From a virus: DNA of 22,850 bases. Below the pieces are notes generated by a model that was not told where the DNA came from, did not search any database, and saw nothing but the letters and a program-made list of their open reading frames with translations. Shown one piece after another: positions 1,288 to 22,850 of this stretch. Each line of letters starts with the position of its first letter. The stretch's first letter is position 1. The position numbers and the translations under genes were made by a program. The DNA lies in IMG/VR virus record IMGVR_UViG_3300020171_002235, positions 1 through 22,850 of that record, one strand, 5' to 3'.

Positions 1288-1889
1288 TAATCGACTATCG
1301 TGAAACCGTTCTTTTTAAATATTTTAAAGACGCGACAATAGAAAATTTACCCATTGGAGACATTATTGAAAACGGGTTTTGCATTGAACGAAAATCTCCA
1401 AAAGATTTTTTAAGTTCAATATTAAATCATCACGTTTTTAATCAGGCAATTAATCTACATGATAACTATCCAGAACGATGTGTAATTATTGTCGAAGCCG
1501 ATCTTAAAAGTCTTGTAGATACAATTCACTTTAGTGGTATTCCTAATATCACAATTGAGGGAGTAAGAGGGGCAATCGCAAGTTTATATATTAAATATAA
1601 GGTGCCCGTTTTACTTGCATCGAATCGTCATGGTTTTGTAGAAATGGTAAATAAATTATTAGAAAAAAATAATGAATCTAAAGAAGAATTAGTATTTATC
1701 GAATCACCAATATCAAAAAGGAAAGCCAATTACAAATTGCAAATATTAATGCAAATACCTAAAATTGGATATAAAAAGGCACAAAAGATATTAGATCATT
1801 ATGCGACATTTGAAAACCTTAAAATAATGGATAGACCAAAAGGGGTTTCCGAAACAGATATTAATAACATATTAGAGGCACTTAAATAA
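1284..1889 (+). CDS. ERCC4/XPF-family nuclease with helix-hairpin-helix domain
   Basis: The protein carries the XPF/Mus81/Hef nuclease signature: IIDYRE at the N-terminus, then GD (25-26), ERK (35-37) and D41, matching GDxnERKx3D, which binds the catalytic metal. Residues about 150-180 (QIPKIGYKKAQKILDHY) form a helix-hairpin-helix DNA-binding element, as in archaeal and eukaryotic XPF relatives that cut branched DNA at junctions. There is no helicase domain. I chose GTG 1284 because it overlaps the upstream stop by 4 bp (GTGA) and has GGGTGA at 1274-1279 as a ribosome binding site; an in-frame GTG at 1272 would add four residues. A role in recombination, replication-fork processing or resolution of packaging intermediates is inferred. 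Confidence 0.85.
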   Translation: MIIDYRETVLFKYFKDATIENLPIGDIIENGFCIERKSPKDFLSSILNHHVFNQAINLHDNYPERCVIIVEADLKSLVDTIHFSGIPNITIEGVRGAIASLYIKYKVPVLLASNRHGFVEMVNKLLEKNNESKEELVFIESPISKRKANYKLQILMQIPKIGYKKAQKILDHYATFENLKIMDRPKGVSETDINNILEALK

Positions 1890-2241: not shown

Positions 2242-2823
2242 ATGAAAATCGAATTAATCGCAATAACACCCGATGCGGAGAAAGTAATAGAGTTGTCGGG
2301 TCGAATTGCATATCAATCTCAAGATAAGATTACCAAGGATAGTGCAGAAAAATTTATAAAATCATTGATAACTCGTGGGCATACGAGTGTCATTGAACAT
2401 GCTTCCGCTACTTTTTATATATCGGGAATAAGTCGATCGTGTTCACACCAATTAGTTCGACATCGTTTAGCAAGCTTCACTCAGAAAAGTGAAAGATATG
2501 TTACTTTAAAAGATTTTAAATATGTAATACCCGAAAGTATAAAGAATAATGATACATCATCTATAATATTTAAATCTGCAATGGAATATTTAAATGGATG
2601 TTATAAATCTTTAAATGACTTAGAAATTAAAAAAGAAGACGCCAGATTTGTACTTCCAGAAGCAACGGAAACGGAATTGGTTATGACGGCAAATTTTAGA
2701 GAATTAAGACATATTATAAAACTTAGAACGGATAAAGCGGCTCAATGGGAAATTCGTGAAGTTTGCCAAGAAATGCTTAAAATATTAAAAGAAAACGCAC
2801 CAAGTTGTTTTGGAGATTTATAA
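2242..2823 (+). CDS. thyX: Flavin-dependent thymidylate synthase ThyX
   Basis: ThyX converts dUMP to dTMP using methylenetetrahydrofolate, with FAD and NADPH as reductant. The ThyX signature RHRxxSxxxxSxRY is intact at residues 73-86, and the upstream HTSVIEHA segment (47-54) and the C-terminal FRELRHIIKLRTDKAAQWEIR segment fit the nucleotide- and flavin-binding regions. At 193 residues it is near the short end of the family. It belongs with the class III ribonucleotide reductase and P-loop kinase nearby, forming a set that would raise the dTTP supply for an AT-rich viral genome. It lies 4 bp downstream of the preceding gene with AAGG as a modest ribosome binding site. Confidence 0.95.
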   Translation: MKIELIAITPDAEKVIELSGRIAYQSQDKITKDSAEKFIKSLITRGHTSVIEHASATFYISGISRSCSHQLVRHRLASFTQKSERYVTLKDFKYVIPESIKNNDTSSIIFKSAMEYLNGCYKSLNDLEIKKEDARFVLPEATETELVMTANFRELRHIIKLRTDKAAQWEIREVCQEMLKILKENAPSCFGDL

Positions 2824-3946: not shown

Positions 3947-6607
3947 ATGAAAGAAATTAATAGTTATATAGATAAATCTGATTGGCGGATAAATGAAAAT
4001 GCTAATACGGGATTCTCAATTTCAGGATTAAAAAGTTATATTTCATCAACAATTTTAGCAAAAGATTCCTTATCACGATTACCAAGAAATATTAGAGATG
4101 CACATAAAAACGGTGAAATTCATATTCACGATTTGGATGGATCACTTTGGTCACCTTATTGTCTTGGAGCTGATTTACAACAATTAATGTTTGAAGGATT
4201 AAAAAATCCGGTTGGAAGTATGTCAAATCCGGCAAAGTATCTCGATACTATGACTGACCATATGGTTAATTATCTTTATATGAGTCAAAATGAATTTAAT
4301 GGTGCTCAAGCCTTTTCTAATGTTGATACTCTTTTATCCGGGTATGTTATTGGTCAAGATTATAGTTATATAAAACAATGTTTACAAAGATTAATATATA
4401 ATATTTCATATCCTTTACGATCTGCATTTCAATGTATATCTGAAGACACCCAAATTCTTACTAATACTGGTTGGAAATATTATAATGAAATATCCGAAAT
4501 TGATAAAGTTGGAACATTTAATTTAGTAAATAATGAATTAGAATTTTTAATTCCTGATAAAATTGTAAGATATAATTATAATGGAAAAATGATTCATATT
4601 GCTAATATGAGAACAGATCAATTAGTTACTCCCGAACATCGTATAATTAAAACAGAAACAGAAAATTTAAGTCAAAAATGGATGTTTATAGAAGCAAAAG
4701 AATTGTTAGAAAAAAAGATATTTTGTCTTCCTATTACCACTCAATATAATATAAAAGATTATAATATTACTGATAATGAATTAAAATTACATGCGTGGAT
4801 AATATCCGAAGGAACTTATCGTTCTGGAAATTCATTTAGAATTTATCAAAGTACTAAAAGTATTTTTTTAGATGAAATAAGAAATCTATTAAAAGTGAAT
4901 AATATAGATTTTTTTGAAACATCACAAAAATCCGGATTTGGTGGAAAAGATGTTGTAATATTTAATTGTAGTAAAAAAAGAAATATTGAATTTAATATTA
5001 TAAAAGAAATTCCTAATACGTTTTTATTATTATCTAGAAAACAAGCAAAATTATTTTTAGATGAATATAGAAAGGGTGATGGAAGTAATAATAAATATCA
5101 ATATAGAATATACTCAAAAAATAAAAATAATATTGAAATGATAGAGGCTCTTTGCGTAATATCCGGATATGGTTTTCATACGATTTATCATAAACAAAAT
5201 GGGGTTGCATCAATTAGATTAATAAAATATTTTAAAAATAAAACTTATATTTATAAAAACAGAAATAATGCTATAGAAGCGATAGATTATAATGGTCTTG
5301 TATGGTGTGTAAGAAGTAAAAATGAATCGATGATTACTAAACGTAATGGAAAAATTGCAATAACTGGTAACACACCATTTATAAATTTTTCATTTGATTT
5401 AATACCGCCGAAACATATGAAGAATGAACCAGTTCTTATTGCTGGGAAAACACATGAAAGTTTATCTTATGGTGATATGCAAAAAGAAATGGATATGATA
5501 AATAAAGCATTTTTAGAAATTATGTTGAAAGGCGATTCGCAAGGAAAACCATTTACTTTTCCAATTCCAACTTATGGAATTACTAAAGAATTATTAAATA
5601 AAAATGATGAAGTAACAAATTTACTTTGGCAATTATCTACAAAATTCGGAAATCCTAACTTCATGAATTACATTGCTACAAATGCAGACCCTTCTGATGT
5701 CAGGGCACTTTGTTGTCGATTAAATTTAGATATTTCAAAATTACGAGGTCGTGGATTATGGAATATAGGAAATAAGACAGGTTCTCTTGGAGTTGTAACA
5801 TTGAACTTCAATCATGCATCTAAAGACGGTGAAGATCATTTTATAGAACTTATAGACGATTATTATGATTTGGCTATACAAGAACTCTTAATAAAGAGAA
5901 AGTATATCTACGAAGCTTTTAATAAAGGATTATTACCATTTACAAGATGTTACCTTCCCGAAAAAGATCCATTTGCGACATTTTTTAATACTATTGGAAT
6001 TCATGCAATGAATGAAGCTTGTATAAATATGTTCGGAGAAACAATTGAATTTCATCAAGATTTTGTAGTTGAAATTCTCAAACATCTTAGAAATAGAGTC
6101 GATGAAACTACGGAAGAAACCGGAATTTTACATAACATTGAACAAACTCCCTGTGAGGGAGCCACACATCGTTTAGCAAAATTAGATAAAAAATTTGGAC
6201 TACCAACACAAGGAACGAATAATCCTTTTTTAACTAATTCAACTCATTGCCCGGTTAACACAATTTTCGATTGGACGGCTACGGTTAAAGTTCAAGAAAA
6301 ATTTAATACTTACTATTCGGGCGGTACAATAATGCACGGATTTACGGGAGAAGATATTTTACCCGAAAGAGCGGAAAAAATAATTAAACAAATGTCAAAA
6401 GAGACAACCATTCCGTATTATAACTTAACTCCTACATATTCTATATGTCAAGACCATGGAAGATTTGCCGGAAATGTTCCAATATGTCCGACATGTAATA
6501 ATATGAATTATGTGTACTCACGTGTGGTAGGTTATTTACAACCCGTACAAAAATGGAATAAGGGAAAACAAGAAGAATTTAGAATGAGAAAGGAATATAA
6601 AATTTAG
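3947..6607 (+). CDS. nrdD: Anaerobic (class III) ribonucleoside-triphosphate reductase with intein
   Basis: NrdD reduces ribonucleoside triphosphates to deoxyribonucleotides with a glycyl radical, which oxygen destroys, so the host is anaerobic at least part of the time. The N-extein holds NGEIHIHDLDG and GGAQ-like substrate segments (here NGAQAFSNVD). The C-extein holds the CCRL pair (C589-C590), the loop GNKTGSLGVVTLNF, a metal site near the C-terminus (CQDHG ... CPTC) and the glycyl-radical motif RVVGYLQPV with G862. Removing the 313-residue intein leaves about 573 residues, near the family norm. The start has GAGAGGT upstream. The activase NrdG is absent from the window and may be elsewhere or supplied by the host. 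Confidence 0.95.
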   Translation: MKEINSYIDKSDWRINENANTGFSISGLKSYISSTILAKDSLSRLPRNIRDAHKNGEIHIHDLDGSLWSPYCLGADLQQLMFEGLKNPVGSMSNPAKYLDTMTDHMVNYLYMSQNEFNGAQAFSNVDTLLSGYVIGQDYSYIKQCLQRLIYNISYPLRSAFQCISEDTQILTNTGWKYYNEISEIDKVGTFNLVNNELEFLIPDKIVRYNYNGKMIHIANMRTDQLVTPEHRIIKTETENLSQKWMFIEAKELLEKKIFCLPITTQYNIKDYNITDNELKLHAWIISEGTYRSGNSFRIYQSTKSIFLDEIRNLLKVNNIDFFETSQKSGFGGKDVVIFNCSKKRNIEFNIIKEIPNTFLLLSRKQAKLFLDEYRKGDGSNNKYQYRIYSKNKNNIEMIEALCVISGYGFHTIYHKQNGVASIRLIKYFKNKTYIYKNRNNAIEAIDYNGLVWCVRSKNESMITKRNGKIAITGNTPFINFSFDLIPPKHMKNEPVLIAGKTHESLSYGDMQKEMDMINKAFLEIMLKGDSQGKPFTFPIPTYGITKELLNKNDEVTNLLWQLSTKFGNPNFMNYIATNADPSDVRALCCRLNLDISKLRGRGLWNIGNKTGSLGVVTLNFNHASKDGEDHFIELIDDYYDLAIQELLIKRKYIYEAFNKGLLPFTRCYLPEKDPFATFFNTIGIHAMNEACINMFGETIEFHQDFVVEILKHLRNRVDETTEETGILHNIEQTPCEGATHRLAKLDKKFGLPTQGTNNPFLTNSTHCPVNTIFDWTATVKVQEKFNTYYSGGTIMHGFTGEDILPERAEKIIKQMSKETTIPYYNLTPTYSICQDHGRFAGNVPICPTCNNMNYVYSRVVGYLQPVQKWNKGKQEEFRMRKEYKI
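4433..5371 (+). mobile_element. Intein in NrdD (313 aa) with diverged LAGLIDADG domain
   Basis: The NrdD sequence breaks between YPLRSAFQ and TPFINFSFD, which join perfectly in other NrdD proteins. The insert starts with C163 (CISEDTQILT, splicing block A) and ends with ITGN at N475, followed by T476 as the +1 nucleophile. The penultimate residue is G instead of the usual H. Two LAGLIDADG-like motifs, LHAWIISEGTY and LFLDEYRKGDGS, flank the endonuclease core. The first motif has E in place of the usual acidic D, so cleavage activity is uncertain. Splicing is probable because the reading frame and both junctions are intact. Confidence 0.92.
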
Positions 6608-6643: not shown

Positions 6644-7267
6644 ATGTGTGATTCGTATAAACAATGGTTAAACAATGGATGTCCTAAAGTATATTGTAAT
6701 TGTGGTTGCGGAAAAGAAATTATTATAACGAAATGGCATAAATCTAATGGAATACCTAATTATATTTGTGGACATAGTGGAAGGGGAAAATTTCGTAGTA
6801 TAGAAACAAAACAAAAAATGAGAAAATCACATAAAGGATTACAATCGGGAAAAAACCATCCAATGTATGGAAGACATCATACGGAAAAAACTAAAGAAAA
6901 AATTAGAAATAATAAACCTAATTGTCAAGGAAAAAATAATTCGAATTATATAGACGGTCGTTCATTTGAACCTTATTGCGAAAGATTTAATGAAAAAACA
7001 AAAGAAAGAATACGAGAACGTGATAATAGAACTTGTCAATTATGTGGAAAAAATGAACAAGATAATAAACAAAAATTAGATGTTCATCACATACATTATG
7101 ATAAAGAAAATTGTTATCCGGATTTAATTAGTTTATGTCATAAGTGTAATAGTAAAGTAAATAAAAATAGAAATTATTGGGAAGAATATTTTATAAAAAT
7201 ATTGGAAAGAAATAATTTATTGAATTTAAATAATAAAAAACTAAAATTTATAGAGGAAAGAATGTGA
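6644..7267 (+). CDS. Free-standing HNH homing endonuclease with NUMOD3 motifs
   Basis: The 207-residue protein has three parts. Residues 1-45 are a cysteine/histidine module (YKQWLNNGCPKVYCNCGCGKE, then IPNYICGH) that also occurs twice in the endonuclease at 11038-11919. The middle holds a NUMOD3 DNA-binding segment (GKNHPMYGRHHTEKTKEKIR). The C-terminus is an HNH nuclease with CQLCG, LDVHHIHYD and LCHKCNSKVN. Such genes cut cognate alleles lacking the element and spread by repair. It lies between nrdD and the RNA ligase, whose GTG start overlaps its stop (GTGA), so the insertion is woven into the operon. Confidence 0.9.
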   Translation: MCDSYKQWLNNGCPKVYCNCGCGKEIIITKWHKSNGIPNYICGHSGRGKFRSIETKQKMRKSHKGLQSGKNHPMYGRHHTEKTKEKIRNNKPNCQGKNNSNYIDGRSFEPYCERFNEKTKERIRERDNRTCQLCGKNEQDNKQKLDVHHIHYDKENCYPDLISLCHKCNSKVNKNRNYWEEYFIKILERNNLLNLNNKKLKFIEERM

Positions 7268-8977: not shown

Positions 8978-9004
8978 AAGACTTAATTAAAAAATTTAAG
9001 TCTT
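8978..9004. terminator. Bidirectional hairpin between convergent genes
   Basis: AAGACTTAA (8978-8986) and TTAAGTCTT (8996-9004) form a 9-bp stem with a 9-nt A/T loop exactly between the two convergent gene blocks. The left-strand copy overlaps the stop codon of the fibre gene. It may stop transcription from both sides, though neither side has a long T-tract. Confidence 0.45.
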
Positions 9005-10564
9005 GATAATATAATTCGCCACACCAAAAGGTTGCATAATATTATGGGGCGTGTCCGAACCAACATAATCGCAATAACTTGCATTAGGTGCTGATGTGTT
9101 CGTTCCACTATCCATGGCCAAATAGGCACCACCCCCCGAACTTTTGTATATACCGTGCCGGTGAGTTGGCATTTCAGCGATTGCAAGTTGATGCGTTTCC
9201 GCTCCTGATTTGTCGCCCCTTGCCCGGACGGTCAGACCAGATCCCGCACCTGCACCTATTACAGCCCGTCCCAGAAAATCGGGTACATTAAATGTAGTGC
9301 TGCCGTCCCCAACGCCATAATTAGTATCGACTACCGCAAATAATTCGGAATATGTGGTTCTACTTACCGCGGCGCCATCACAATTATGAACTATGAATTT
9401 ATTTGCTATAAAAGAATGTAATCCTTCAACTTTTATATCATATTTATAATTGAAAATGGATTTATCTTTTTTGCTTCTATTATATGAAGATATTTCGCGA
9501 ATAGAAAAAGTAAATGGTATTTTATTATATTCAATAAATTTTATTTCTTTAATATCTTTTCTATATTTTTCTGGTATTTTATATATTAATGAATTATGAA
9601 TATATGGTGCTATTTTATTAAAAAAAATATCATTACTTTCTCTATCAATACATAAAGTTTTTCCTTTAGTATTATTTCTTGGGTAAAGAATAGTTTTTAT
9701 ATTCATACTTGAAAAATATTCTTGAATTAAAGATAAAGAGTCGTCGTTGAATCCTTCGGTATGTAAATTAACCCTAAAATAGTTTGGATATCTTTTATCT
9801 TTTGAAAGTGATCCATCATCCATATACCAATAAGCTAAACCTATATCTCCCAATTGATTTAAAAGATCAATAGAAACTTTATCCTTTTTTATTAATTCAC
9901 ATATTTCGGGACAAAATGTTTTAAGAGATTTTCTAAAATTTACCCATCCCTTTTTATCATTCCAACCACCTTTATTAATTCCATATTGAAGAGTAGTATT
10001 AAGAAGTTTAGCGGTATCTTTTGCATATTCTTCTTGGGGTAAGCCGTGTCGAACGGAAAAACGACCATTTTTACTTATTGATCCATCACCTAAATACATT
10101 CCAAGAATAGCTTGTTTTCCTTGTTTTGTAAGAGTTTCTTCATATCTAAATATAACATCATCTATTTTTAAATTTTGTGCTTCCACCCATCCACGATTAG
10201 TCCATATTGGATGATTTTTTGTTAAAGTTAAGGTTCTTTCACCTATATCCTTTCCCTTTTCAATTTTTAAACGAAGCCATTCATTTTTTTCGGCTTTATT
10301 TTTCATCCAATCAATAATTTTTCCTTTTTTAATTTCTCCGGTTATCTCATCAAAAGCGAGTACTTCTATGTTCTTTTTTTCTTCAACAATTTTATCTATT
10401 CTTTCTTCTGTTCCATCTGCCAAAGTTACTTTACTATCACCCGTTAAACAAAGTAGCCATCCCGTTGGCGCACTTGTACCACCATAAGGTAATATTGCAC
10501 CTACCGGCATCATTGCATTTAATAATGCTGCCGTTATTACATCTCCTGCTATCCATGCTGTCAT
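8996..10564 (-). CDS. Tail-collar-domain fibre protein with intein
   Basis: Once the intein is removed this is a 166-residue short fibre. The N-part (MTAWIAGDVITAALLNA ... VGAILPYGG) joins APTGWLL to CDGAAVSRTTYSELFAVV, the phage tail collar motif found in T4 short-fibre-like and many other fibre tips. GDGSTTFNVPDFLGRAVIGAG, MPTHRHG and the C-terminal MQPFGVANYIIK complete the family pattern. Such proteins sit at the distal tail and help in host recognition. The extein DNA is clearly GC-richer than the intein and most of the genome, suggesting acquisition from another virus. The gene is last in the leftward module. Confidence 0.9.
   Translation of the reverse strand: MTAWIAGDVITAALLNAMMPVGAILPYGGTSAPTGWLLCLTGDSKVTLADGTEERIDKIVEEKKNIEVLAFDEITGEIKKGKIIDWMKNKAEKNEWLRLKIEKGKDIGERTLTLTKNHPIWTNRGWVEAQNLKIDDVIFRYEETLTKQGKQAILGMYLGDGSISKNGRFSVRHGLPQEEYAKDTAKLLNTTLQYGINKGGWNDKKGWVNFRKSLKTFCPEICELIKKDKVSIDLLNQLGDIGLAYWYMDDGSLSKDKRYPNYFRVNLHTEGFNDDSLSLIQEYFSSMNIKTILYPRNNTKGKTLCIDRESNDIFFNKIAPYIHNSLIYKIPEKYRKDIKEIKFIEYNKIPFTFSIREISSYNRSKKDKSIFNYKYDIKVEGLHSFIANKFIVHNCDGAAVSRTTYSELFAVVDTNYGVGDGSTTFNVPDFLGRAVIGAGAGSGLTVRARGDKSGAETHQLAIAEMPTHRHGIYKSSGGGAYLAMDSGTNTSAPNASYCDYVGSDTPHNIMQPFGVANYIIKT
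9383..10450 (-). mobile_element. Intein with LAGLIDADG endonuclease in the collar fibre (356 aa)
   Basis: The insert spans residues 39-394. It starts with C39 (CLTGDSKVTLADGTEERI, block A) and ends FIVHN, with C395 as the +1 nucleophile, so all canonical splicing residues including the penultimate histidine are present. A block B-like TLTKNHPIW follows. Two good LAGLIDADG motifs, ILGMYLGDGS and GLAYWYMDDGS, keep their acidic residues, so the homing endonuclease could be active. Its AT-rich DNA contrasts sharply with the extein. Splicing would restore GWLL-CDGAA. Confidence 0.95.
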
Positions 10565-10577
10565 TTAAATCACTTCT

Positions 10578-11051
10578 TTAAAACGTTACGTCCAAATCTA
10601 CCGTGAGAGTAAAATCTTCGGTTTTTGTTATTAATGTTGTCGCACTTGATATTAATATTCGATCGAGCATGACGCCCGTATTCGAACTTACCGAAGAACT
10701 CGTTCCGCCGAAAAATGCGATTTCGGTTATCGTTCCACTATTTGCTTGAGCAACATTAAAAAAAGCACTAAAAGTTCCGGTTTGTGCGGCTCTTGTGTAA
10801 ACCACTTCGGAACGATCCAATTCACTAACGAGAATTATTGAACCCGCAGACGCTATACCGCCTGAGTGACCTACGGCACAATGCTTTATATAAGCTCCCG
10901 TATTTCCACCCATTCCGTCAAGTATAAGTTGCTCACCAACGTTGGTAATAGTGTTGGGCATCACAATCGTATGTATGGTTTTTCCTGTTTGTGCATTTTT
11001 TAATGTCGTTCGTATTATATTATTAAATTTTAAGTTTTCATTGATGAACAT
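10578..11051 (-). CDS. Putative distal tail or baseplate protein, 157 aa
   Basis: The protein is beta-rich, with repeated short strands, many small and polar residues and no membrane segment. NTITNVGEQLILDGMGG and ITEIAFFGGTSSS resemble structural proteins found near tail-tip and fibre genes of many viruses, where they pair with the collar fibre. The exact family is not recognised. Its ATG 11051 lies inside the end of the upstream HNH gene (14-bp overlap), with GGTGAGG about 11 bp before it, so translation of the two is probably linked. Confidence 0.6.
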   Translation of the reverse strand: MFINENLKFNNIIRTTLKNAQTGKTIHTIVMPNTITNVGEQLILDGMGGNTGAYIKHCAVGHSGGIASAGSIILVSELDRSEVVYTRAAQTGTFSAFFNVAQANSGTITEIAFFGGTSSSVSSNTGVMLDRILISSATTLITKTEDFTLTVDLDVTF

Positions 11052-11919
11052 TGTTTAGTTTCCTCACCCTTTTATTATTATGACATTTCATACATAGGGG
11101 GACAAGTTTCCAAGGTTTACCATTACATCCTTGTTTTTTATCTTCATCTACATGATGGACAGACAATTTTCTTATTTTACCCGTTTTAGTTATATTATTC
11201 CTTTCTTCTTTACCACATAAATAACATTTTCTTCCATATTGTTCTCTTACTTCTTCTCTTTTTTTCTCTGTCCATTTTTCACAATAAGGTTCAAAAGAAA
11301 TACCGCCTTTCCAATTAGGATTTTTATCACTACTACATTTTCCTAACCGTTTTTCCGTTATTTTTTCTTTAGTTTCTTTAGTATGTTGTTTACCATACAT
11401 TCCATTGTTTTTTCCACTATTAGCTTCTCTCATTTTTTGTTTAGTTTCTTCGGAGGGATGTTTTCCTAAATGTGCTTCTCTATTTTTTTGTTTATGTTCT
11501 TCAGATTTAGGCTTTCTTAATTTTTGTTTATGTTCTTCAGATTTAGGCTTTCTTAATTTTTGTTTAGTTTCTTCGGTATGTCGTTTTCCTAAGTTTGCTT
11601 CTCTTATTTTTTCTTTAGTTTCTTCGGAGGGTGGACAATGACCACGAATATATTTAGGAATACCATCGGATTTATGATATTTTTTTATAATAATTTCTCC
11701 ACTACATCCACATTCACAATAAATTTTAGGACATCCATCTTCTAACCATTTTTGATATGATTCGGGTATTGGATAAATTCTACCTTGATGTCCATTAAAA
11801 TATTTAGGAATCCCATGATATTTATGTAATTTCGTAATAATTATTTCCCCATGACACGGACAACTACAATAAACCTTTGGACATCCATCATCTAACCATT
11901 GTATATAAGAATCGTGCAT
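11038..11919 (-). CDS. HNH homing endonuclease with repeated NUMOD3 motifs and duplicated zinc module
   Basis: The 293-residue protein begins with two copies (about 1-44 and 52-94) of a module with pattern SYxxWLxDGCPKxYCxCxC, then EIII.K.HK..GIP.Y..GH; the 6644 gene has one copy. A chain of NUMOD3-like repeats follows (SEETKEKIREANLGKRHTEE, SEEHKQKLRKPK twice, and others), which would contact DNA as a modular string. The C-terminus is an HNH nuclease: CYLCGKEE, LSVHHVDEDK, LVPLCMKCHNNK. It sits between the tail hub gene and a distal tail gene and is a likely mobile insertion. Confidence 0.88.
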   Translation of the reverse strand: MHDSYIQWLDDGCPKVYCSCPCHGEIIITKLHKYHGIPKYFNGHQGRIYPIPESYQKWLEDGCPKIYCECGCSGEIIIKKYHKSDGIPKYIRGHCPPSEETKEKIREANLGKRHTEETKQKLRKPKSEEHKQKLRKPKSEEHKQKNREAHLGKHPSEETKQKMREANSGKNNGMYGKQHTKETKEKITEKRLGKCSSDKNPNWKGGISFEPYCEKWTEKKREEVREQYGRKCYLCGKEERNNITKTGKIRKLSVHHVDEDKKQGCNGKPWKLVPLCMKCHNNKRVRKLNNVHQ

Positions 11920-13373: not shown

Positions 13374-13805
13374 TTAAGCCTTCATTATATTTGCTCCCTC
13401 AAGGAAACTGAGATCACAAGTTAGGCGAGGATCTCCGCCTTCTTGTCTTATTCTTACATTATCAAAAATACCATACAACAGTGTTGTATTAATACTTCCA
13501 CTCCAATCGTTCATAGAAATTTTATAATCAATATCATATTTATTATTACACATATCAAGGCAAGTTTTGATATCTGTCATCGGAATTTCAAAAGTAATTT
13601 TTGCTTGAGCATTAATTCCAGTAATACAAATAGTGTCACTTTTTTCATTAATTAATCGTCCTGTCGTTAAAGAAGTATTATCGACAATTGGTAATCCAAA
13701 TTGTATTACGCCATTACTTTTTGTGATTTCAAAACTATTACAATTATCAATCGTATAAATCGTATTATATACGCTTCCACTATATTGTGCGATTTGTATT
13801 GTCAT
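13374..13805 (-). CDS. Putative distal tail protein, 143 aa
   Basis: The small protein lies directly after the tape measure gene, its ATG overlapping that gene's TAA by one base. This is the usual place of a distal tail or tail-tip adaptor. The sequence is beta-rich (KITFEIPMTDIKTCLDMCNN, NTTLLYGIFDNVRIRQEGGDPRLTCDLSFLEGA), consistent with a ring-forming adaptor binding the hub. I cannot match it to a named family, so the call rests mainly on position and strand-rich composition. Confidence 0.55.
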   Translation of the reverse strand: MTIQIAQYSGSVYNTIYTIDNCNSFEITKSNGVIQFGLPIVDNTSLTTGRLINEKSDTICITGINAQAKITFEIPMTDIKTCLDMCNNKYDIDYKISMNDWSGSINTTLLYGIFDNVRIRQEGGDPRLTCDLSFLEGANIMKA

Positions 13806-15364
13806 TATCTTACGCCCGATCTTTTTGAATTTGTATAAAACACTTTCTCAATTTTTGCCACGATATCATTAATATCCGATTTTGATGTAACTTGAGTGTT
13901 ATTAAAATTTACGGTCATATTAACGGTCTGTCCCATATTTCCTATTCGTGATAGTGGAATAACTGCTTCCGGTCCCCTTTCACCAATAAGTGATACTCTT
14001 GGAGTTGTAACGATTCCACCTTCCGCCATTGCGGGTCCCCAAGATACGCCATATTCACCTGGATCATAGCCTTCATTTCCCCATTCGGTCGAACCTAATC
14101 CGCCTTGAAATCCCCCACCGCTACTTCCTCCCGTGTGAGAAATATTGATATACGGTATTTTGTTCATTAAATCGATAATGTGATTCACCAAACTTTCCCA
14201 AGCAGTTTTAATTGTTGCACAAAATCTATTGATTATTACTATAATTTCATCCCACAAATTTCCCAACGATGATGTGATACCTTCCCACCATTTCCCAAAT
14301 CCTGTAGTGATACCTTCCCACCAATTCCCGAATCCTGTGGTGATGACTTCCCACCAATTCCCGAATCCTGTAGTGATACCTTCCCACCATTTCCCAAATC
14401 CTGTAGTGATACCTTCCCACCAATTCCCAAATCCTGTAGTGATACCTTCCCACCAATTCCCGAATCCTGTAGTGATACCTTCCCACCATTTCCCAAATCC
14501 TGTAGTGATACCTTCCCACCAATTCCCAAATCCTGTAGTGATACCTTCCCACCAATTCCCGAATCCTGTAGTGATACCTTCCCACCAATTCCCGAATCCT
14601 GTAGTGATACCTTCCCACCAATTCCCGAATCCTGTAGTGATACCTTCCCACCATTTCCCAAATCCTGTGGTGATGACTTCCCACAAAATTCCTAAAATTT
14701 TGAGAGTCCCTTCAACGACGAATCCCCATAAGCCTTGTATTGCGCCGGCAGGATCTTTTAAAATTCCCGCAATAGTTTCGCCGAGCCATTTACCTAATGA
14801 TACTAATATCGGCATTACATTATAATAGAATGGAAGTATCAAATATTTTAATAATAACACCATAATAGGTTTAAAAATCGCTGATAGTACCATTGCAATA
14901 GGATATAATGTGAGTTGAAGAATTGCAGACAATCCTTTTAATATCGCTTGAATTGGGGCAAGTGATTGTAAGACCCCAACTACCATCATTACCGCCCCGA
15001 CAAGAATCCCTAATTTGGTAACTATTCCCATAAGACCTTTCGATCCGCCACCAGAAGCTTCCGCACCTTTTGTGAGTGGTTGTAGGTGTTCCGGATTTGT
15101 CATACTCTGATATGCAGCACCAGCTTTTGCATATGTTTTTCCGTCGCCACCCTCAAATTTTCCGGTTATTTTTTTTGAAAGGTCAAAGGTTTTATCTAAA
15201 AATTTTGTGAACGAACTCGATCCTAATATTGTTCGAATTTGTTTTTCTAATTTTCCGGCCCCCTTTTTTCCAGATTTTTCGATATTATCTTCTAAGTCCT
15301 TTCCAATATTTTTATCGACTTCTCCTTCGATGACGACTTTGAAATGTCCAATGTCTTCTGGCAA
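13805..15364 (-). CDS. Tape measure protein with tryptophan repeats
   Basis: This 519-residue protein sets tail length and fills the tail tube. The N-terminus (FKVVIEGEVDKNIGKDLEDNIEKS) is a helical start, residues about 110-200 are strongly hydrophobic with several helices that may insert in the host membrane, and the C-terminus has AEGGIVTTPRVSLIGERGPEAVIPLS, a motif common at tape measure ends. In between are twelve 11-residue units GFG(N/K)WWEGITT. The length is short for a tape measure; at about 0.15 nm per residue the tail would be near 80 nm. It starts at TTG 15364, overlapping the end of the frameshifted chaperone. Confidence 0.92.
   Translation of the reverse strand: MPEDIGHFKVVIEGEVDKNIGKDLEDNIEKSGKKGAGKLEKQIRTILGSSSFTKFLDKTFDLSKKITGKFEGGDGKTYAKAGAAYQSMTNPEHLQPLTKGAEASGGGSKGLMGIVTKLGILVGAVMMVVGVLQSLAPIQAILKGLSAILQLTLYPIAMVLSAIFKPIMVLLLKYLILPFYYNVMPILVSLGKWLGETIAGILKDPAGAIQGLWGFVVEGTLKILGILWEVITTGFGKWWEGITTGFGNWWEGITTGFGNWWEGITTGFGNWWEGITTGFGNWWEGITTGFGKWWEGITTGFGNWWEGITTGFGNWWEGITTGFGKWWEGITTGFGNWWEVITTGFGNWWEGITTGFGKWWEGITSSLGNLWDEIIVIINRFCATIKTAWESLVNHIIDLMNKIPYINISHTGGSSGGGFQGGLGSTEWGNEGYDPGEYGVSWGPAMAEGGIVTTPRVSLIGERGPEAVIPLSRIGNMGQTVNMTVNFNNTQVTSKSDINDIVAKIEKVFYTNSKRSGVR
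14274..14669 (-). repeat. Twelve tandem 33-bp repeats in the tape measure gene
   Basis: Twelve head-to-tail 33-bp units, 396 bp in total, encode T-G-F-G-(N/K)-W-W-E-(G/V)-I-T. Four copies (1, 6, 9 and 12 in protein order) have K and the rest N, and copy 10 has V for G. Degenerate half-units flank the array (GILWEVITT before, SLGNLWDEI after). Eleven-residue Trp/Phe repeats are known in tape measure proteins, but here they are almost identical, implying recent expansion. Confidence 0.95.
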
Positions 15365-15908: not shown

Positions 15909-16865
15909 TCAAGGCATCGCCGAAGCTTGGTTTACGACTTGTACAATGCATGATTCGGGAATTATATCTATAACTTCTGATTGCTCCGTCTCCACGTTTT
16001 GCGTGCCAAGTGAATGTCTTTCAATTACAGCATTAGTAAATATGAATGACCAAATTTTCTTTACGGATGCGCTTGTTTCGCCATTATTCAATGATATTGT
16101 TATTCCCGTTTCACCCGATACCATTGTACTATTTGGTGCAGATAATGTATTACCACCATAAGCAAGTCTTAAATATTGCGATGCATCATCAAAAAAATTT
16201 GTAGTAGTGATATCATAAGTTCTCTGTCTCATATCATATCTTGATGCTTTACGTGAACCTAATCCCCATTTCAAAGCCGCATTGTTTGTAATACTTAATT
16301 CAACCGATTCCGTGTTCGCTACGGTTGTTCCCGTAGGATATTGAATTGATCCATAAGAGAATGGGAAAACTCCGCCACTTGATAATATTTGAGTTGTACT
16401 ACCGGAAGTTAGACTTTCATCGGCATAAGTAAGACTTAAAGAACATTTTGCGGGTTCATCACCAACAGCGGTCGATATTTTACAATCATTAATTATGCAA
16501 CCAAGATATTTACGAACCGTACCGGAAATACCGTTTTCAATGGTTAATGAAGGTGGTTGATTAGCTTCAGTAAAAGTGTGCCAATATGCCGATGTTGCCG
16601 AACCGGAAGTTGTAAGACCACCCATAACTCCCTTCATAAACCAGGGTTCATTGATATCAAACTCTATTGATAATGTACCTTCAATTTTGCCGGCTACGTG
16701 TGCAACCGCACTTCGATTGCCAAGTTGAAATAATCTTCGAGTATTATTTTTTATATCGACTGATCTAATTTGAAGATTTTGACCAAAAATTTTGTCGCAT
16801 GTTGCCGCACCCTTAAAAGTACTCTCATATCCGAAGTGTACGTAATTACTTTCGCCGCCCGGCAT
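15909..16865 (-). CDS. Major tail tube protein
   Basis: This 318-residue beta-rich protein directly precedes the tail chaperone, as the tube protein does in siphoviruses. GGESNYVHFGYESTFKGAA, the SVDIKNNTRRLFQLGNRSAV segment and KIEGTLSIEFDIN, followed by CSLSLTYADESL and GITISLNNGETSASVKKIW, match the pattern of phage tail tube proteins that form hexameric rings around the tape measure. No extra Ig-like domain is visible. The start has a perfect archaeal ribosome binding site (GGTGAT) inside the end of the upstream 40-residue gene, and high expression is expected. Confidence 0.8.
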   Translation of the reverse strand: MPGGESNYVHFGYESTFKGAATCDKIFGQNLQIRSVDIKNNTRRLFQLGNRSAVAHVAGKIEGTLSIEFDINEPWFMKGVMGGLTTSGSATSAYWHTFTEANQPPSLTIENGISGTVRKYLGCIINDCKISTAVGDEPAKCSLSLTYADESLTSGSTTQILSSGGVFPFSYGSIQYPTGTTVANTESVELSITNNAALKWGLGSRKASRYDMRQRTYDITTTNFFDDASQYLRLAYGGNTLSAPNSTMVSGETGITISLNNGETSASVKKIWSFIFTNAVIERHSLGTQNVETEQSEVIDIIPESCIVQVVNQASAMP

Positions 16866-17157: not shown

Positions 17158-17586
17158 TTAAACGATTTTATTACTTCGTTCTATTTCATGTGGGCATTCA
17201 CCAAAAGAACCTTTTGCACAATTACAATTAAAACATAAAACTTGATATCCTTCGGGAAAATTATTTTTTATAAGATTAAGACATAATTGTAAACTATAAT
17301 ATTTATTTGGTCTTTTATTTTTTCCGTATATCAATCTTCCACAATCTATATGATCAATCGATAAAAACTCTATATGTTTTTCTCCACAACAATTACATTG
17401 CATTGTACCGTTAGAATAGTGTTCTATTACTTTTATTTTAACATTATAACGATAATCTTTATCATATTTTCTTCTTTTATTACTTCGACGATATTCTATT
17501 CGACTAAGATCAAAACATTCTTTAGAACAATATCTTTGATTGTGTCCAATTTTAATAAATTCTTTACCACAAAATAGACAATTCAT
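17158..17586 (-). CDS. HNH endonuclease, small zinc-rich type
   Basis: The 142-residue protein begins with a treble-clef-like zinc site (CLFCGKEF ... RYCSKECF). The nuclease core reads CNCCGEKHIEFLSIDHIDC, with D-H as the first catalytic residues, then a basic spacer GKNKRPNKYYSLQL and YQVLCFNCNCAKGSFGECPHE with the N of HNH and a second pair of cysteines. This arrangement is common in solitary HNH genes of viruses. It lacks NUMOD3 motifs, so it is a different lineage from the other two. It sits between tail completion and tail tube genes and is a probable mobile insertion. Confidence 0.85.
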   Translation of the reverse strand: MNCLFCGKEFIKIGHNQRYCSKECFDLSRIEYRRSNKRRKYDKDYRYNVKIKVIEHYSNGTMQCNCCGEKHIEFLSIDHIDCGRLIYGKNKRPNKYYSLQLCLNLIKNNFPEGYQVLCFNCNCAKGSFGECPHEIERSNKIV

Positions 17587-18031: not shown

Positions 18032-18934
18032 TTAGTAATACCTCGATGATAAAATTTCAGTTCTTTTTGTTAATATTTTTTCCGCTTGTTCATTCCATTT
18101 TTCCCATCTTTGATTTGTATCAAGAACCGTACCCATCGTACTTTGTGGATATACTACATTGAGGTCTTCCTTTCCTCCTACTATTTGTGTTGCCGTCATC
18201 ATCACCGCCGCTTTTTTAATATCTCCCGGACAAATTGTTTCTCCATAATCGTAAGTTATTCTTGCATTACTTCTTTGCCAAAGAGGATATCGTGAAACAA
18301 AATATATTATACCTCTTTCGTAGTCAATCCAATAATCTTGATTCCTACCCTCAGTATAAGTTGCAATAAAATCAGTCCAATTACTACCATCCCAAACCTC
18401 AATTTTAGTCGTACCCGAAACAAATGCCCGTATAGACCGATGCTTTAGTGCCACCGCAATTCTTGTAGAGTAATCATAAGGATAAGTTCCCCGGTATCCC
18501 CATAATCGATCTTGTATTCTAATATTATAATATTCGTTCGTTACCCTTACTTTTCGCCATGCATGATGTGTAATTTTATCTATGGAATCACAAACATCAC
18601 TTATAATATCCTCGACTTCGAATCGTGTCGGATTCGTGGAATCGCTAAACTGTGTGCGACCCATGAATGAAGCAACTTCCCTTGCCGTACAATAATATTC
18701 ATTGTCGGCTTGAAACGGATCAGTATAATCGCTATAAACCGAACTTCCACTATCATAAAATCGCATTTTATACCAATGCGTCGAGGTGCCCGTTTCATCA
18801 TAAAAAGTATTATTAGTAATAACTTGCGAAGCCAATTCCGAATAGCTCGCACTTTGTAATACACTTCGTTCGATTATAACATAATTCCAAGATGTTTCTG
18901 TATTTGGTATATCAAAATTTATATAATTACCCAT
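18032..18934 (-). CDS. Head-tail connector (adaptor) protein with N-terminal Fn3-like domain
   Basis: The 300-residue protein has two parts. Residues 1-75 form a beta-rich, fibronectin-like domain (ETSWNYVIIERSVLQSA, THWYKMRFYDSGSSVYSDYTDP). The second part has an adaptor start (YCTAREVASFMGRTQF ... FEVEDIISDVCDSIDKITHHAWR), common to gp6/gp15-like neck proteins that bind the portal, followed by a beta-rich insert and a helical C-terminus (DIKKAAVMMTATQIVGG). It links the head, whose genes are outside the window, to the tail. Its ATG overlaps the preceding stop as TAATG. Confidence 0.72.
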   Translation of the reverse strand: MGNYINFDIPNTETSWNYVIIERSVLQSASYSELASQVITNNTFYDETGTSTHWYKMRFYDSGSSVYSDYTDPFQADNEYYCTAREVASFMGRTQFSDSTNPTRFEVEDIISDVCDSIDKITHHAWRKVRVTNEYYNIRIQDRLWGYRGTYPYDYSTRIAVALKHRSIRAFVSGTTKIEVWDGSNWTDFIATYTEGRNQDYWIDYERGIIYFVSRYPLWQRSNARITYDYGETICPGDIKKAAVMMTATQIVGGKEDLNVVYPQSTMGTVLDTNQRWEKWNEQAEKILTKRTEILSSRYY

Positions 18935-19935
18935 TATTGTTCAATTCCCCTTGCTTTTGGTTTAATTTGTCGCCCACTTGCGGTTGGTTTAGTTTGTCGC
19001 CCACTTGCGGTTGGTTTAAATGTAACGATTATTCCATCAATAGTATAATTTGCAGTTCCTTCTCCTACGGCAACTGATAATTGCACATCAATTGATAAAT
19101 TTAATTCATTATTTAATTTTTTAATTAAAGTATCGATGGAATAATTTTTATCTATAATAGCTTTTAATATTATATCAATAACATAATTTCTATCAATATT
19201 AGTTAATTTTATTAAAGTATCAATTGAATAATTTCTATCAATATTTAATTTCTTAATTAAAATATCAATAACATAATTTCTATCGATATTTAATGCTTTT
19301 ATTAATATATCAATATTATAATTTGAATCGATTGATTTTTTGAAAATAACATCAAGAACGTAATTTCGATCTATATTTAATTTTTTAAGTAACGTATCAA
19401 TAGAACAATTAATATCAATATTTAATTTTTTAAATAAAACATCTAAATTATAATTTTTATTGTTTATTCCCGCACTTGATAAAATTAAGTCAAGAACATA
19501 ACTTTTATCAATATTAGTTAATTTAAGTAAAGCATTAATAACATAATTTCTATCAATATTTAATTTTTTAATTAAAGTATCAATAGAGTAATTTTTATCA
19601 ATATTTAACTTTTTAAATAAAGCATCAATAACATAATTTCTATCAATATTAGTTAATTTTATTAAAGTATCAATTGAATAATTTATAATTCCCGTTTTTT
19701 GTAATATTACATTAATAACATAATTTCGATCAACATCTAATAATTTTATTAATGTATCAATTGAATAATTTTTATCAATATCTAATTTTTTAAGTAGAGA
19801 ATCAATGGTATAAGTTTTGTCTGTTCCACCTACGGATACAGTCTCATTGAACTGCCCGTATCCAGGTAGTAAATACTTCGCAGATACTGTTTCATTCACT
19901 AATCCATATCCTGGAAGTAATCTTACTGTCGTCAT
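18934..19935 (-). CDS. 15-residue-repeat protein with basic C-terminal repeats
   Basis: Function is unknown. The N-terminus has two copies of LLPGYG..NETVS, seen in viral fibre-like proteins. Then come about 17 copies of a 15-residue unit, consensus N-I-D-R/K-N-Y-x-I-D-x-L-I-K-K-L, often alternating between YSIDTLIKK and YVIDxLLK forms. The C-terminus ends TFKPTASGRQTKPTASGRQ, a repeat also found at the end of the gene at 22005. No membrane segment or signal peptide is seen. The repeat suggests a long rod, either coiled-coil-like or a solenoid. It sits between a foreign fibre gene and the connector gene, so a head or tail fibre component is likely. Confidence 0.7.
   Translation of the reverse strand: MTTVRLLPGYGLVNETVSAKYLLPGYGQFNETVSVGGTDKTYTIDSLLKKLDIDKNYSIDTLIKLLDVDRNYVINVILQKTGIINYSIDTLIKLTNIDRNYVIDALFKKLNIDKNYSIDTLIKKLNIDRNYVINALLKLTNIDKSYVLDLILSSAGINNKNYNLDVLFKKLNIDINCSIDTLLKKLNIDRNYVLDVIFKKSIDSNYNIDILIKALNIDRNYVIDILIKKLNIDRNYSIDTLIKLTNIDRNYVIDIILKAIIDKNYSIDTLIKKLNNELNLSIDVQLSVAVGEGTANYTIDGIIVTFKPTASGRQTKPTASGRQIKPKARGIEQ
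18963..19016 (-). repeat. Two 27-bp repeats encoding PTASGRQ(I/T)K
   Basis: Two 27-bp units (18963-18989 and 18990-19016) end this gene. The stretch 18998-19030 is identical over 33 bp to 22093-22125 in the other repeat protein, a direct repeat about 3.1 kb apart. Confidence 0.9.
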
Positions 19936-19936
19936 T

Positions 19937-21445
19937 TTAACTCAATGTAATATAAGGATCAACATAAACCGGATTTGTTGTTACTTTCCCAAGATACACT
20001 TTAGCTACGATATACCCAGCTTCTTGCGGGGTGAATGATACTGACAGTTTCTGTTTTATCTCCCCCGTTAAATTCTCTGTCCATGATGCTGTACTCGTTG
20101 TTTGCGCTGCCGGAGTTCCGAACCATGCCATCTTATCGTTCACGAAAGAAGCAAGAGGAAAACCCGAAGTACCGAGATACTCCAGTTCCATCCATATCTC
20201 ATCATCATCAAGCGCTGCGGCTTCGTTATGAATTATTTCTACCGTTGCTATCTTTGCGCTACCTACAACTGAATTCCACTGCGCTATGGGTGGACTTTCA
20301 AGCGGACTGATATACGCAGCGCCGGTTATCGGTGTCATCTTCATGGAAAATGCAGCGTTGAGATAACAGTTATCCGCCTGTATTATTGACCCCTGATATT
20401 TGTGGTGTTCAAACCGATAATTGAGGTCTCCTGAGTGACAGTTATCAAGAAGCACTTCCACACCGCCCTGTCCTGGAATTGTTCCTGATAGCACTACGGC
20501 GTTTGCGCCAAGTTTACAGTTCTTGATTTTTACGGTACTCGCGCATGCGGTGCTGCCAAGCACTAACGCGGACGCGCCTATTGGAGATAAATCACATCCA
20601 TTCAGTTCAAATGTAGATGCAACAGATACATTTGATTTAATTAAAACAGACGGGAAAACAGAACCTGTTATTGTCCCGCCGATCCAAAATATTTTTCCGT
20701 GTCGAAAATACAAGGCCTGTGCGATTGCTGCAAATTGGATATTTGTATTTTTTAGAATAATTAAACAATCATCGTTTACAGCAGATGCTCCTACTATACC
20801 AAAATAGATATGACTTGTCGTAGATGTTGTAATTATTTTCAAATTACAGGTATCCAGCACAATATATGTTGGAGTTATTGACCCCAAATACAAAGGAGAC
20901 GAAGTTCCGGTAGTTCCTGCATTGAACGTGACACCATATATATATATGATTCCAAGTATGTACATATCTCCAGGAGACGTGGTAGTTATTGTTGCGGTTG
21001 TTGCTATTGTTGTCGGTGGTGTTGCCGTATCCACAACACATAAAACCATACACGGCAACGCAGCCGTTCCAGGACTGGTAAGCGTTAAATCCGTTGCTTG
21101 CGTTTCGGCATGATTATTACTCAACCAAACCGTATCTCCCGCTGCCATCCACGCCAGAGCATTCGCAAGTCTTGCATGTGCCGCAGTCCATCCGTAAGTC
21201 TCATTTCCCGTGACCTCGACCCAATCTGTAACAGTCCCATCAGCCGGCTGCGCTGCGCCTTTTGTCAATACCCAAACAGGCTCAGTTGCGCCAGATGTCC
21301 CCCCTGCTGCTGTTCTGAAACATCGTTCGCTTCCCACAGCAGGAGCAGCAAGCTGCCGAACAATAGACCCAGCGCCATAAACAGTAAGTGCTGCCCATTG
21401 TGCAACTGCTGTATGTTTCGTTGAACCGCAATACCAGTTACTCAT
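19937..21445 (-). CDS. Beta-rich fibre/adhesin protein, GC-rich, foreign composition
   Basis: The 502-residue protein starts SNWYCGSTKHTAVAQWAALT, with the pattern W.A.TVY..GS.V and EPVWVLTKGA that recurs in viral head-fibre and tail-fibre proteins. The middle is a run of short strands and turns (DLTLTSPG, MVLCVVDTATPP, IYIYGVTFN, IVLDTCNLKI, VKIKNCKLGANAV, VEVLLDNCHSGDL), fitting a right-handed beta-helix as in receptor-binding or carbohydrate-active fibres. The C-terminus (GEIKQKLSVSFTPQEAGYIVAKVYLGK) looks like a beta-sandwich. The DNA is much richer in GC than neighbouring genes, pointing to transfer from another virus. It is translationally coupled to the gene before it (TAATG). Confidence 0.75.
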   Translation of the reverse strand: MSNWYCGSTKHTAVAQWAALTVYGAGSIVRQLAAPAVGSERCFRTAAGGTSGATEPVWVLTKGAAQPADGTVTDWVEVTGNETYGWTAAHARLANALAWMAAGDTVWLSNNHAETQATDLTLTSPGTAALPCMVLCVVDTATPPTTIATTATITTTSPGDMYILGIIYIYGVTFNAGTTGTSSPLYLGSITPTYIVLDTCNLKIITTSTTSHIYFGIVGASAVNDDCLIILKNTNIQFAAIAQALYFRHGKIFWIGGTITGSVFPSVLIKSNVSVASTFELNGCDLSPIGASALVLGSTACASTVKIKNCKLGANAVVLSGTIPGQGGVEVLLDNCHSGDLNYRFEHHKYQGSIIQADNCYLNAAFSMKMTPITGAAYISPLESPPIAQWNSVVGSAKIATVEIIHNEAAALDDDEIWMELEYLGTSGFPLASFVNDKMAWFGTPAAQTTSTASWTENLTGEIKQKLSVSFTPQEAGYIVAKVYLGKVTTNPVYVDPYITLS

Positions 21446-21948
21446 TATTCAATCACCTCAATCAGATTATTATTAGCTTCAAGTGTATTAGCAATAGCAA
21501 ATATCGCATCAAGCCTGGTGTTTATTCTTCCCAATACGACAGTGGTGATTCCAAGATAGGTAGCTATTTGCGTTGGTGTATATGTCGCTTTGAGCCAATC
21601 TATCAGTGGTTTTATTGCCACGATTATTTTGACATCCCGATGATTCATAAGGTATCTGACTAACCTCCTCAGAAATGCCTGCTTTGTCGTGAAATCGAAT
21701 GTATAGTTTGCGGGGTTTGAATGCTCTTCTTCAAACTTGGATATTAATTTCTGCTCCTCGTTATCTATGAGCATTGCATTTATCGAGGGGACTCGATCCA
21801 GCATAATGACATTAACATCAGTATCGGCATTCGCCAGATACTGTATAAAATGCAAAGCGCCGAGGTGGTCGATGTGACGTTCCCTTACTGACCGTCTGCC
21901 ATCTTTCTGTACTTGATTTTCAATTATCTGACTGGATATTATTGCCAT
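21445..21948 (-). CDS. Conserved fibre-associated phage protein, 167 aa
   Basis: The N-terminus reads MAIISSQIIENQVQKDGRRS then RERHIDHLG, a pattern I recall from a widespread phage family found beside fibre genes, whose function is unknown. A helical middle (AMLIDNEEQKLISKFEEE) and a C-terminal segment (YTPTQIATYLGIT) that may be a small helical DNA- or protein-binding unit follow. I chose ATG 21948 because the family starts MA.ISS and AAGG lies about 5 bp before it; GTG 21954 would add two residues. It shares the higher GC content of the fibre gene downstream and probably moved with it. Confidence 0.65.
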   Translation of the reverse strand: MAIISSQIIENQVQKDGRRSVRERHIDHLGALHFIQYLANADTDVNVIMLDRVPSINAMLIDNEEQKLISKFEEEHSNPANYTFDFTTKQAFLRRLVRYLMNHRDVKIIVAIKPLIDWLKATYTPTQIATYLGITTVVLGRINTRLDAIFAIANTLEANNNLIEVIE

Positions 21949-22004
21949 TTTCACCTTAATAATATATTGGTAATTACTTCATAAATACTTAGTTTTTATA
22001 TTCT

Positions 22005-22850
22005 TTATTTCATTTCTATTGCTTTTGGTTTAATTTGCCGCCCACTTGCGGTTGGTTTAATTTGCCGCCCACTTGCGGTTGGTTTAATTTGCCGCCCACT
22101 TGCGGTTGGTTTAAATGTAACGATTCTTGCTATTATACTATCAATCGAATATGTTTCATTAATATTTAATTTTTTTATTAAAATGTCGATTATATAAGTT
22201 TTATCAATATTTAACTTCTTTATTAAAGTATCAATCGAATAATTTGAACCAATAAGATATAACAATAATGTATCGATGACATAACTCCTTTCAACATTTA
22301 ATTTTTTTATCAAAACGTCAATCGAATAATTCCGAGTAATTGAACGTTTTATTAAAATATCAATTACATAACTTTTTTCAATATTTAATTTTTGAATTAA
22401 TGTATCAATTGAATATTGTTCATTAATATTTAACAATTTTATTAAAATATCAATTACATAAGTTTTATCAATATTTAATTTCTTGACAAGAGTATCTAAA
22501 GTATAAGTTTTATCAATATTTAATTTCTTGACAAGAGTATCTAAAGTATAAGTTTTATCAATATTTAATTTCTTGACAAGAGTATCTAAAGTATAATTCG
22601 AAGTAATTGAATATTTTAATATGGCATCAATAACATAACTTCTTTCAATATTTAATTTCTTTATTAAAGTATCTAAAGTATAATTATCTTCGATATTCAA
22701 TTTTTTAAGTAAAATATCCGCGACGTAAGTTTTATCAATATTTAATGATTTTAATAAAACATTAATAGAATATTCTTTGTTGATATTTGCTTTCTTTAAT
22801 AATGAATCAATAACATAAGTTTTATCTATATTAAGAACAGTAAGTAATGT
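22005..22850 (-). CDS. 15-residue-repeat protein, partial (runs off the window)
   Basis: The frame is open from the window edge (22850) to the stop at 22005; the true start is outside. It encodes at least 16 copies of the same 15-residue unit as the 18934 gene (for example NIDKTYTLDTLVKKL) and ends with three copies of PTASGRQIK. A TTG at 22700 is internal to the repeat, so it is not a believable start. The two proteins are paralogues, flanking the GC-rich fibre pair. A 49-bp gap separates this gene from the GC-rich gene downstream. Confidence 0.75.
   Translation of the reverse strand, partial: TLLTVLNIDKTYVIDSLLKKANINKEYSINVLLKSLNIDKTYVADILLKKLNIEDNYTLDTLIKKLNIERSYVIDAILKYSITSNYTLDTLVKKLNIDKTYTLDTLVKKLNIDKTYTLDTLVKKLNIDKTYVIDILIKLLNINEQYSIDTLIQKLNIEKSYVIDILIKRSITRNYSIDVLIKKLNVERSYVIDTLLLYLIGSNYSIDTLIKKLNIDKTYIIDILIKKLNINETYSIDSIIARIVTFKPTASGRQIKPTASGRQIKPTASGRQIKPKAIEMK
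22031..22111 (-). repeat. Three 27-bp repeats encoding PTASGRQIK
   Basis: Units at 22031-22057, 22058-22084 and 22085-22111 are identical to each other. They give a basic, low-complexity tail with one more copy than the paralogue at 18963-19016. Confidence 0.92.
22461..22595 (-). repeat. Three identical 45-bp repeats
   Basis: Copies at 22461-22505, 22506-22550 and 22551-22595 are identical to each other, while the other 45-bp units in the gene have diverged. This shows recent expansion by slippage or unequal recombination and predicts copy-number variation among relatives. Confidence 0.9.

Follow-up and report, generated by a model that had tools for sequence, protein, structure and literature searches.

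A tandem 14/15-residue repeat in a probable archaeal tailed virus looks like a recurring virus-particle building block rather than a dedicated gene-swapping device

Introduction

In what is probably a tailed virus of archaea, two genes just upstream of the head-tail connector gene encode long arrays of a short repeat and bracket two further genes of higher GC content. This arrangement raises the question of whether the repeat genes exist to move the genes between them or are themselves part of the virus particle. An earlier note on this DNA had favoured the former, describing a fibre-exchange locus bounded by a repeat scaffold, in which recombination at a shared 33-bp stretch could delete, duplicate or swap the enclosed genes. 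The analysis presented here leads us to a different view, namely that the repeat looks like a component used again and again in virus particles, and not like a device dedicated to swapping genes.

The stretch analysed (the window) is an entire IMG/VR record of 22,850 bp, and sequence ahead of repB lies outside it. Read from right to left on the minus strand, the genes are repB, the 169-aa and 502-aa genes, repA, the connector, a 136-aa gene, the tail tube, the tape measure and the distal tail genes. The features on which the argument rests are the following.

22005..22850, minus strand: repB, repeat-array protein with about 16 units of 14/15 aa and three C-terminal copies of PTASGRQIK; N-terminus off the contig
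22479..22596, minus strand: exact 45-bp period in repB, about 2.6 copies of one unit; recent unit duplication
22093..22125, minus strand: 33-bp stretch in repB identical to 18998-19030, encoding the start of the C-terminal module (IVTFKPTASGR)
21445..21954, minus strand: 169-aa protein, family not recognised; relative searches empty
19937..21445, minus strand: 502-aa probable beta-helix fibre/tailspike-like protein with a C-terminal beta-sandwich; low-confidence model
18934..19935, minus strand: repA, with two N-terminal copies of LLPGYGxxNETVS, an array of about 16 units of 14/15/16 aa and two C-terminal copies of PTASGRQ
18998..19030, minus strand: 33-bp stretch in repA identical to 22093-22125, in the identical frame
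18032..18934, minus strand: head-tail connector-like protein (phrog_17057; HCTV-1 gp117 homologue), the anchor of the locus, with an extra N-terminal domain of about 75 aa
17618..18028, minus strand: 136-aa protein after the connector, by position a probable tail terminator or completion protein; homologue in G002
15909..16865, minus strand: tail tube protein (Phage_tube_2, E 1.4e-16)

We infer an archaeal host from the haloviral relatives of the connector and tube, from an Archaeoglobi provirus that carries the same repeat, and from an ERCC4-type nuclease gene; this gene (1272-1889, plus strand) and a ThyX gene (2242-2823, plus strand) fit such a host. Several other features of the window deserve mention. 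The tape measure gene (13805-15364, minus strand) contains 12.7 copies of a 33-bp unit at 93% identity (WWEGITTGFGN), the number of which is possibly a tail-length variable. An intein (Intein_splicing and LAGLIDADG_2) resides within a phage tail-collar domain protein (8996-10564, minus strand), a structural gene being an unusual intein host. The anaerobic ribonucleotide reductase NrdD (3947-6607, plus strand) is interrupted at about residues 165-455 by an insertion without a Pfam match, the ends of which resemble those of a second intein. Three HNH/NUMOD-type homing endonuclease-like reading frames are dispersed at 6644-7267 (plus), 11038-11919 (minus) and 17158-17586 (minus), the second assigned by a NUMOD3 match and the other two by eye.

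Results

Two paralogous repeat genes

As the earlier note had described, both repeat genes are open reading frames that encode repeat arrays and end in PTASGRQ copies; each array comprises about sixteen units. The repA product is 333 aa long, with its units spaced by 15 residues eleven times, by 14 three times and by 16 once, and that of repB, open at the contig end, is 281 aa long, with twelve spacings of 15 and three of 14. The two proteins are 57.5% identical. Since units of repA and repB are about as similar to each other (0.50) as units within either gene (0.53 and 0.51), and farther from the units of other viruses (0.28-0.44), the two genes are lineage-specific paralogs. An exact 45-bp period in repB further indicates that array length changes through unit duplication.

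The 33-bp identity between the two genes is exact, as claimed, with orientation and reading frame alike and a chance expectation of 0. TRF places tandem repeats at 18950-19019 and 22025-22114, where a 27-bp module encodes PTASGRQIK, and the 33-bp stretch is coding sequence of this tandem module and no separate recombination site. The identity is explained by the paralogous C-terminal modules of repA and repB.

A repeat family in other viruses

The earlier note did not recognise the repeat family, and the libraries do not name it either: Pfam and NCBIfam gave no repeat match reaching cut-off, PHROGs gave only partial matches to unrelated families, and the PDB gave no sequence match. Weak Pfam and PHROG matches (SulA, Bystin, HTH proteins and others) were matches of composition to a few units and were discarded. 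Single-sequence searches of IMG/VR with repA were empty, likewise with the connector; patterns with a fixed 15-residue spacing had no match in IMG/VR, and tandem PTASGRQ occurred nowhere else in that collection. With repA and repB, tblastn against phages and plasmids returned nothing past a single match at E=4, and a literature search found no paper describing the repeat. The mixed spacing, together with composition filters, is probably why the standard homology searches failed.

The family was uncovered in IMG/VR by a flexible-spacing pattern of three Y-x-x-D-x-L-h cores, which returned nine stretches, eight of them, on seven contigs, carrying long arrays of the repA/repB-type unit. The pattern required one GAT codon, and the family thus extends to at least seven other viruses. 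A repeat HMM built from ten three-unit segments matched arrays in these viruses (G001-G007) at E 1e-7 to 1e-139 and 0 shuffled reading frames, and this single HMM unites the window repeat and the arrays of contigs L028-L037 in one family (tandem Y-x-[ILM]-D-x-L-[LI], 14/15 residues). One of these viruses, G004, is identical with an element, a provirus, on a contig of the Archaeoglobi MAG JdFR-42. Only one of 13 pattern matches in the genome collection was genuine, again the Archaeoglobi provirus, and the repeat is carried by 1 of 393 genomes of the phylum of JdFR-42.

Across the arrays the consensus is I/L(-4), K(-2), T(-1), Y(0, 79%), T/S, I/L/M(2), D(3, 98%), x, L, L/I, K, K, with percentages that reflect a unit finder which itself accepted only D/N at position 3 and, at position 0, only aromatic or aliphatic residues; in short form it reads I-x-K-T-Y-[T/S]-[I/L/M]-D-x-L-[L/I]-K-K. 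None of the libraries searched describes the 14/15-residue repeat, which, as judged by pattern and HMM, is recurrent in mostly unrelated viruses.

Proteins that carry the repeat

Arrays form the bulk of the protein in the window and in L031, L033 and L035. Elsewhere they are C-terminal additions to proteins of different kinds: a 563-aa beta-helix-type fibre protein (L030:15057-16745; fold assigned by eye), a DUF2341 protein (L037:5758-8451; E 1.7e-44), a lectin-like protein in L034 (domain assigned by eye), and collar- and baseplate-like proteins in L028 (both assigned by eye). Each array protein also closes with a short motif of its own, namely PTASGRQ in the window, NERIADLNV in L033, VYxKSxQ in L030 and LNLDYSKYN in L037. 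At L028:5237-7188 the collar-like protein and the next repeat array are in different frames, a split that is probably a frameshift, be it a sequence error or programmed.

A protein of about 190-230 aa with an N-terminal AATVxVxEGNGA-like motif lies beside the repeat genes in 6 of the 7 other viruses. It ends WDEI/YDEI-like where read and belongs to no Pfam or PHROG family.

L030:11038-11610, L031:8487-9065, L028:8264-8842, L034:8545-9135, L035:8373-9008, L036:4333-5016: AATVxVxEGNGA-like protein

The capsid-connector interval

The connector is identified by its match to phrog_17057 (E 1.2e-37) and by lying, in the gene order of relatives, between the capsid and the tail genes. It shares 35% identity with HCTV-1 gp117 over residues 81-293 (39% in another alignment), and gp117 lies five genes past the major capsid gene. 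The window itself holds no capsid gene, the head position of the locus being assigned by synteny. The extra N-terminal domain of the connector (18692-18934, minus strand) is fibronectin-III-like by eye, has no Pfam match and is absent in HCTV-1 and G002; the connectors of L049 and L051 bear different N-terminal extensions.

In the nearest relative, G002, the connector, the 136-aa protein and the tube are homologous to those of the window, and the genes follow one another as major capsid (phrog_24667), small genes with a short repeat ORF among them, a 191-aa gene, a 414-aa gene, a repeat protein, a fibre-plus-repeat protein, a small gene, the connector, the 136-aa homologue and the tube. G003 and G005 likewise have the array between their capsid and tail genes. 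Arrays in G006, and part of those in G001, lie among tail genes, indicating that the repeat module is not head-specific. The interval of HCTV-1, L048 and L051 holds three to four small genes, and in L049 it is taken up by about 7 kb of adhesin-like genes with a Laminin_G_3 lectin domain among their products; the repeat HMM has no match in any of these viruses. Given that interval content differs among the five relatives, with repeat genes present or absent, the interval is a variable virion-accessory locus of this virus group.

The genes between repA and repB

The earlier note called the two enclosed genes GC-rich. The term is a relative one: GC is 45% in the 502-aa and 40% in the 169-aa gene, vs 29-41% in other virion genes and 22% in the repeat genes, whose low value is due to their I/N/K/D/Y codons. 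With GC3 at 0.35-0.41 vs 0.23-0.33 in other virion genes, the composition of this cassette is only moderately atypical.

The description of the fibre gene as foreign holds up well. A full-length relative of the 502-aa protein, 49% identical, occurs in L040, a viral contig of 51% GC without repeats, and tail proteins of Xanthomonas phages are similar to the N-terminal part of that relative. That the 502-aa gene moves between virus lineages is thus well supported, given that its relative sits in so GC-rich and repeat-free a contig. The model of the protein (pLDDT 46) consists of a beta-helix followed by a beta-sandwich, and its best Foldseek matches in the PDB are phage tailspikes (E 4e-4, TM ~0.3 for this model), so that it looks like a beta-helix fibre or tailspike-like protein. 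For the 169-aa protein, relative searches including PHROGs found none.

Possible exchange at the locus

That the cassette would differ between related viruses had been anticipated, and different genes indeed occupy the corresponding locus in the relatives compared. Two readings would give the repeat genes a part in this variation. According to one, unrelated tailed viruses, some infecting archaea, append a new short-repeat fold to many virion proteins as a stalk that can be extended, and the paralogs here supply the homology for in-frame exchange of the fibre genes between them, which we consider unlikely. The other, and a quite improbable one in our judgement, is a dedicated fibre-exchange locus in which repA and repB would recombine with each other and thereby remove the 169/502-aa cassette, duplicate it or exchange it between viruses. 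The 33-bp copies are in frame and 3,095 bp apart, and what remained after a crossover would be a single complete repeat gene followed by the connector. The 502-aa relative in an unrelated virus and the moderately deviant GC3 speak for the same reading. Codons of shared residues, too, are identical in 21/24 cases at the C-terminal ends (0.88 vs 0.53 expected), whereas the arrays are near expectation from codon usage (0.66 vs 0.64); this weak test suggests local conversion of the 3' ends, or else recent sharing or tandem spread, although the codons come from tandem copies and are non-independent.

However, no other virus was found with two repeat genes around a fibre cassette and common ends, and with tandem PTASGRQ confined to this virus within IMG/VR, no partner with matching ends was found. 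The repeat gene is single, or part of a fibre gene, in G002, G003, G005 and G006. Moreover, relatives that have no repeat genes (L048, L049, L051) vary the locus too. A scaffold of repeat genes that bounds or drives fibre exchange is therefore not borne out, since relatives vary the locus without such bracketing and the 33 bp belong to paralogous C-terminal modules; the exchange locus bounded by a scaffold survives as a minority possibility.

Fold of the repeat unit

At a pLDDT of 36.7, the AF2 model of repA is too poor to rely on, and only short helices were noted in it. Across 156 units, Pro never occurs at positions 2-8 and is present at 1, 9, 10 and 13, Gly is maximal at positions 8-10, and the hydrophobic moment of positions 2-9 peaks at 96-100 degrees, which is the helical angle. 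On the simplest reading, the unit is probably a short amphipathic helix (about positions 2-9), capped at either end, with an N/G cap and an extended link.

A beta-type fibre fold (trimeric beta-spiral or beta-solenoid), invisible to single-chain AF2, is less likely but conceivable. The K-T-Y-T-I segment round the Tyr is rich in beta-branched residues and alternates in hydrophobicity in 15-residue units, AF2 failed on the single chain, and known 15-residue fibre shafts are trimeric. The adenovirus-type triple beta-spiral shaft is such a trimer, built of 15-residue units with a conserved Gly/Pro turn; that turn, however, is absent here, and helical periodicity is strongest in positions 2-9. The continuous right-handed coiled-coil rod of 15/4 periodicity considered in the earlier note, for which YadA-type stalks provide the comparison, is very unlikely: a 15-residue period dominates repA and repB and positions 2-9 are amphipathic, but, judged from sequence, the period is not the constant 15 of an uninterrupted pentadecad helix (14, 15 and 16 being mixed, 14 and 15 even within one array), 14-residue units prevail in the other viruses (95 vs 61 units), and each unit has capping residues or Pro/Gly, with position 10 (Gly/Asn) and position 1 (Thr/Ser/Asn/Pro) resembling the two ends of a helix segment and Pro at 1, 9, 10 and 13 in homologous arrays such as that of L034.

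Discussion

On balance, we favour the view that repA and repB are paralogs of an unnamed repeat that serve as extensible stalks in a variable locus ahead of the connector, together with a laterally acquired 502-aa spike, for first contact with the host. They would be lineage-specific paralogous virion proteins, composed mostly of the 14/15-residue repeat and placed just upstream of the connector gene, where relatives keep capsid-decoration or adhesin genes. The array may be a stalk or spacer that can be extended, its length being altered by unit duplication, and its ends (LLPGYGxxNET and PTASGRQ) may attach or display. The 502-aa protein encoded between the repeat genes would be a beta-helix spike gained laterally, and the stalks would carry or accompany it, projecting from the head or neck. 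Stalk and spike together would then make the initial, reversible contact with the surface of the host. The sequences show the repeat family, the gene order, the 502-aa relative in another lineage, unit duplication and the fusions in other viruses, and we infer the virion location, fold and adhesion role of repA and repB. On the virion, the repeat proteins would most likely serve as a spacer of variable length or as an adhesin module.

Naming the repeat could allow annotation to spot, among the now hypothetical proteins of archaeal and environmental viruses, those that belong to the surface, and the capsid-connector interval is usable as a marker for adhesin-like genes of this virus group. The structure of the repeat may also reveal a new extensible stalk fold.

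Among known systems, HCTV-1 and HVTV-1 (Thumleimavirales) are like the window in having a homologous connector and tube in the same order and accessory genes between capsid and connector. In contrast to the window, the interval of HCTV-1 holds four small genes (gp113-116) and no repeat or beta-helix genes. The best fold matches to the 502-aa protein, CBA120 TSP4 (5w6h) and Fri1 gp49 (6c72), likewise combine a beta-helix with a C-terminal sandwich, a likeness at class level only (pLDDT 46, TM about 0.3). Phage structural proteins can bear add-on domains such as collagen-like repeats and Ig-like domains. Like the repeat described here, these are appended to various virion proteins, vary in copy number and are probably surface-exposed; in contrast to them, the window repeat has no Gly-X-Y or Ig signature, differs in unit length and sequence, and matches no library model. 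As for the proposed function, the haloarchaeal virus HFTV1 is documented to attach head first (PMC9973310), its capsid turrets being held responsible (PMC12494034). These turrets (gp30/gp31; PMC12494034) make a head-borne first contact with the archaeal surface, a role like that proposed for repA and repB. The turret head has a deacetylase-like domain where the proteins here have repeat arrays.
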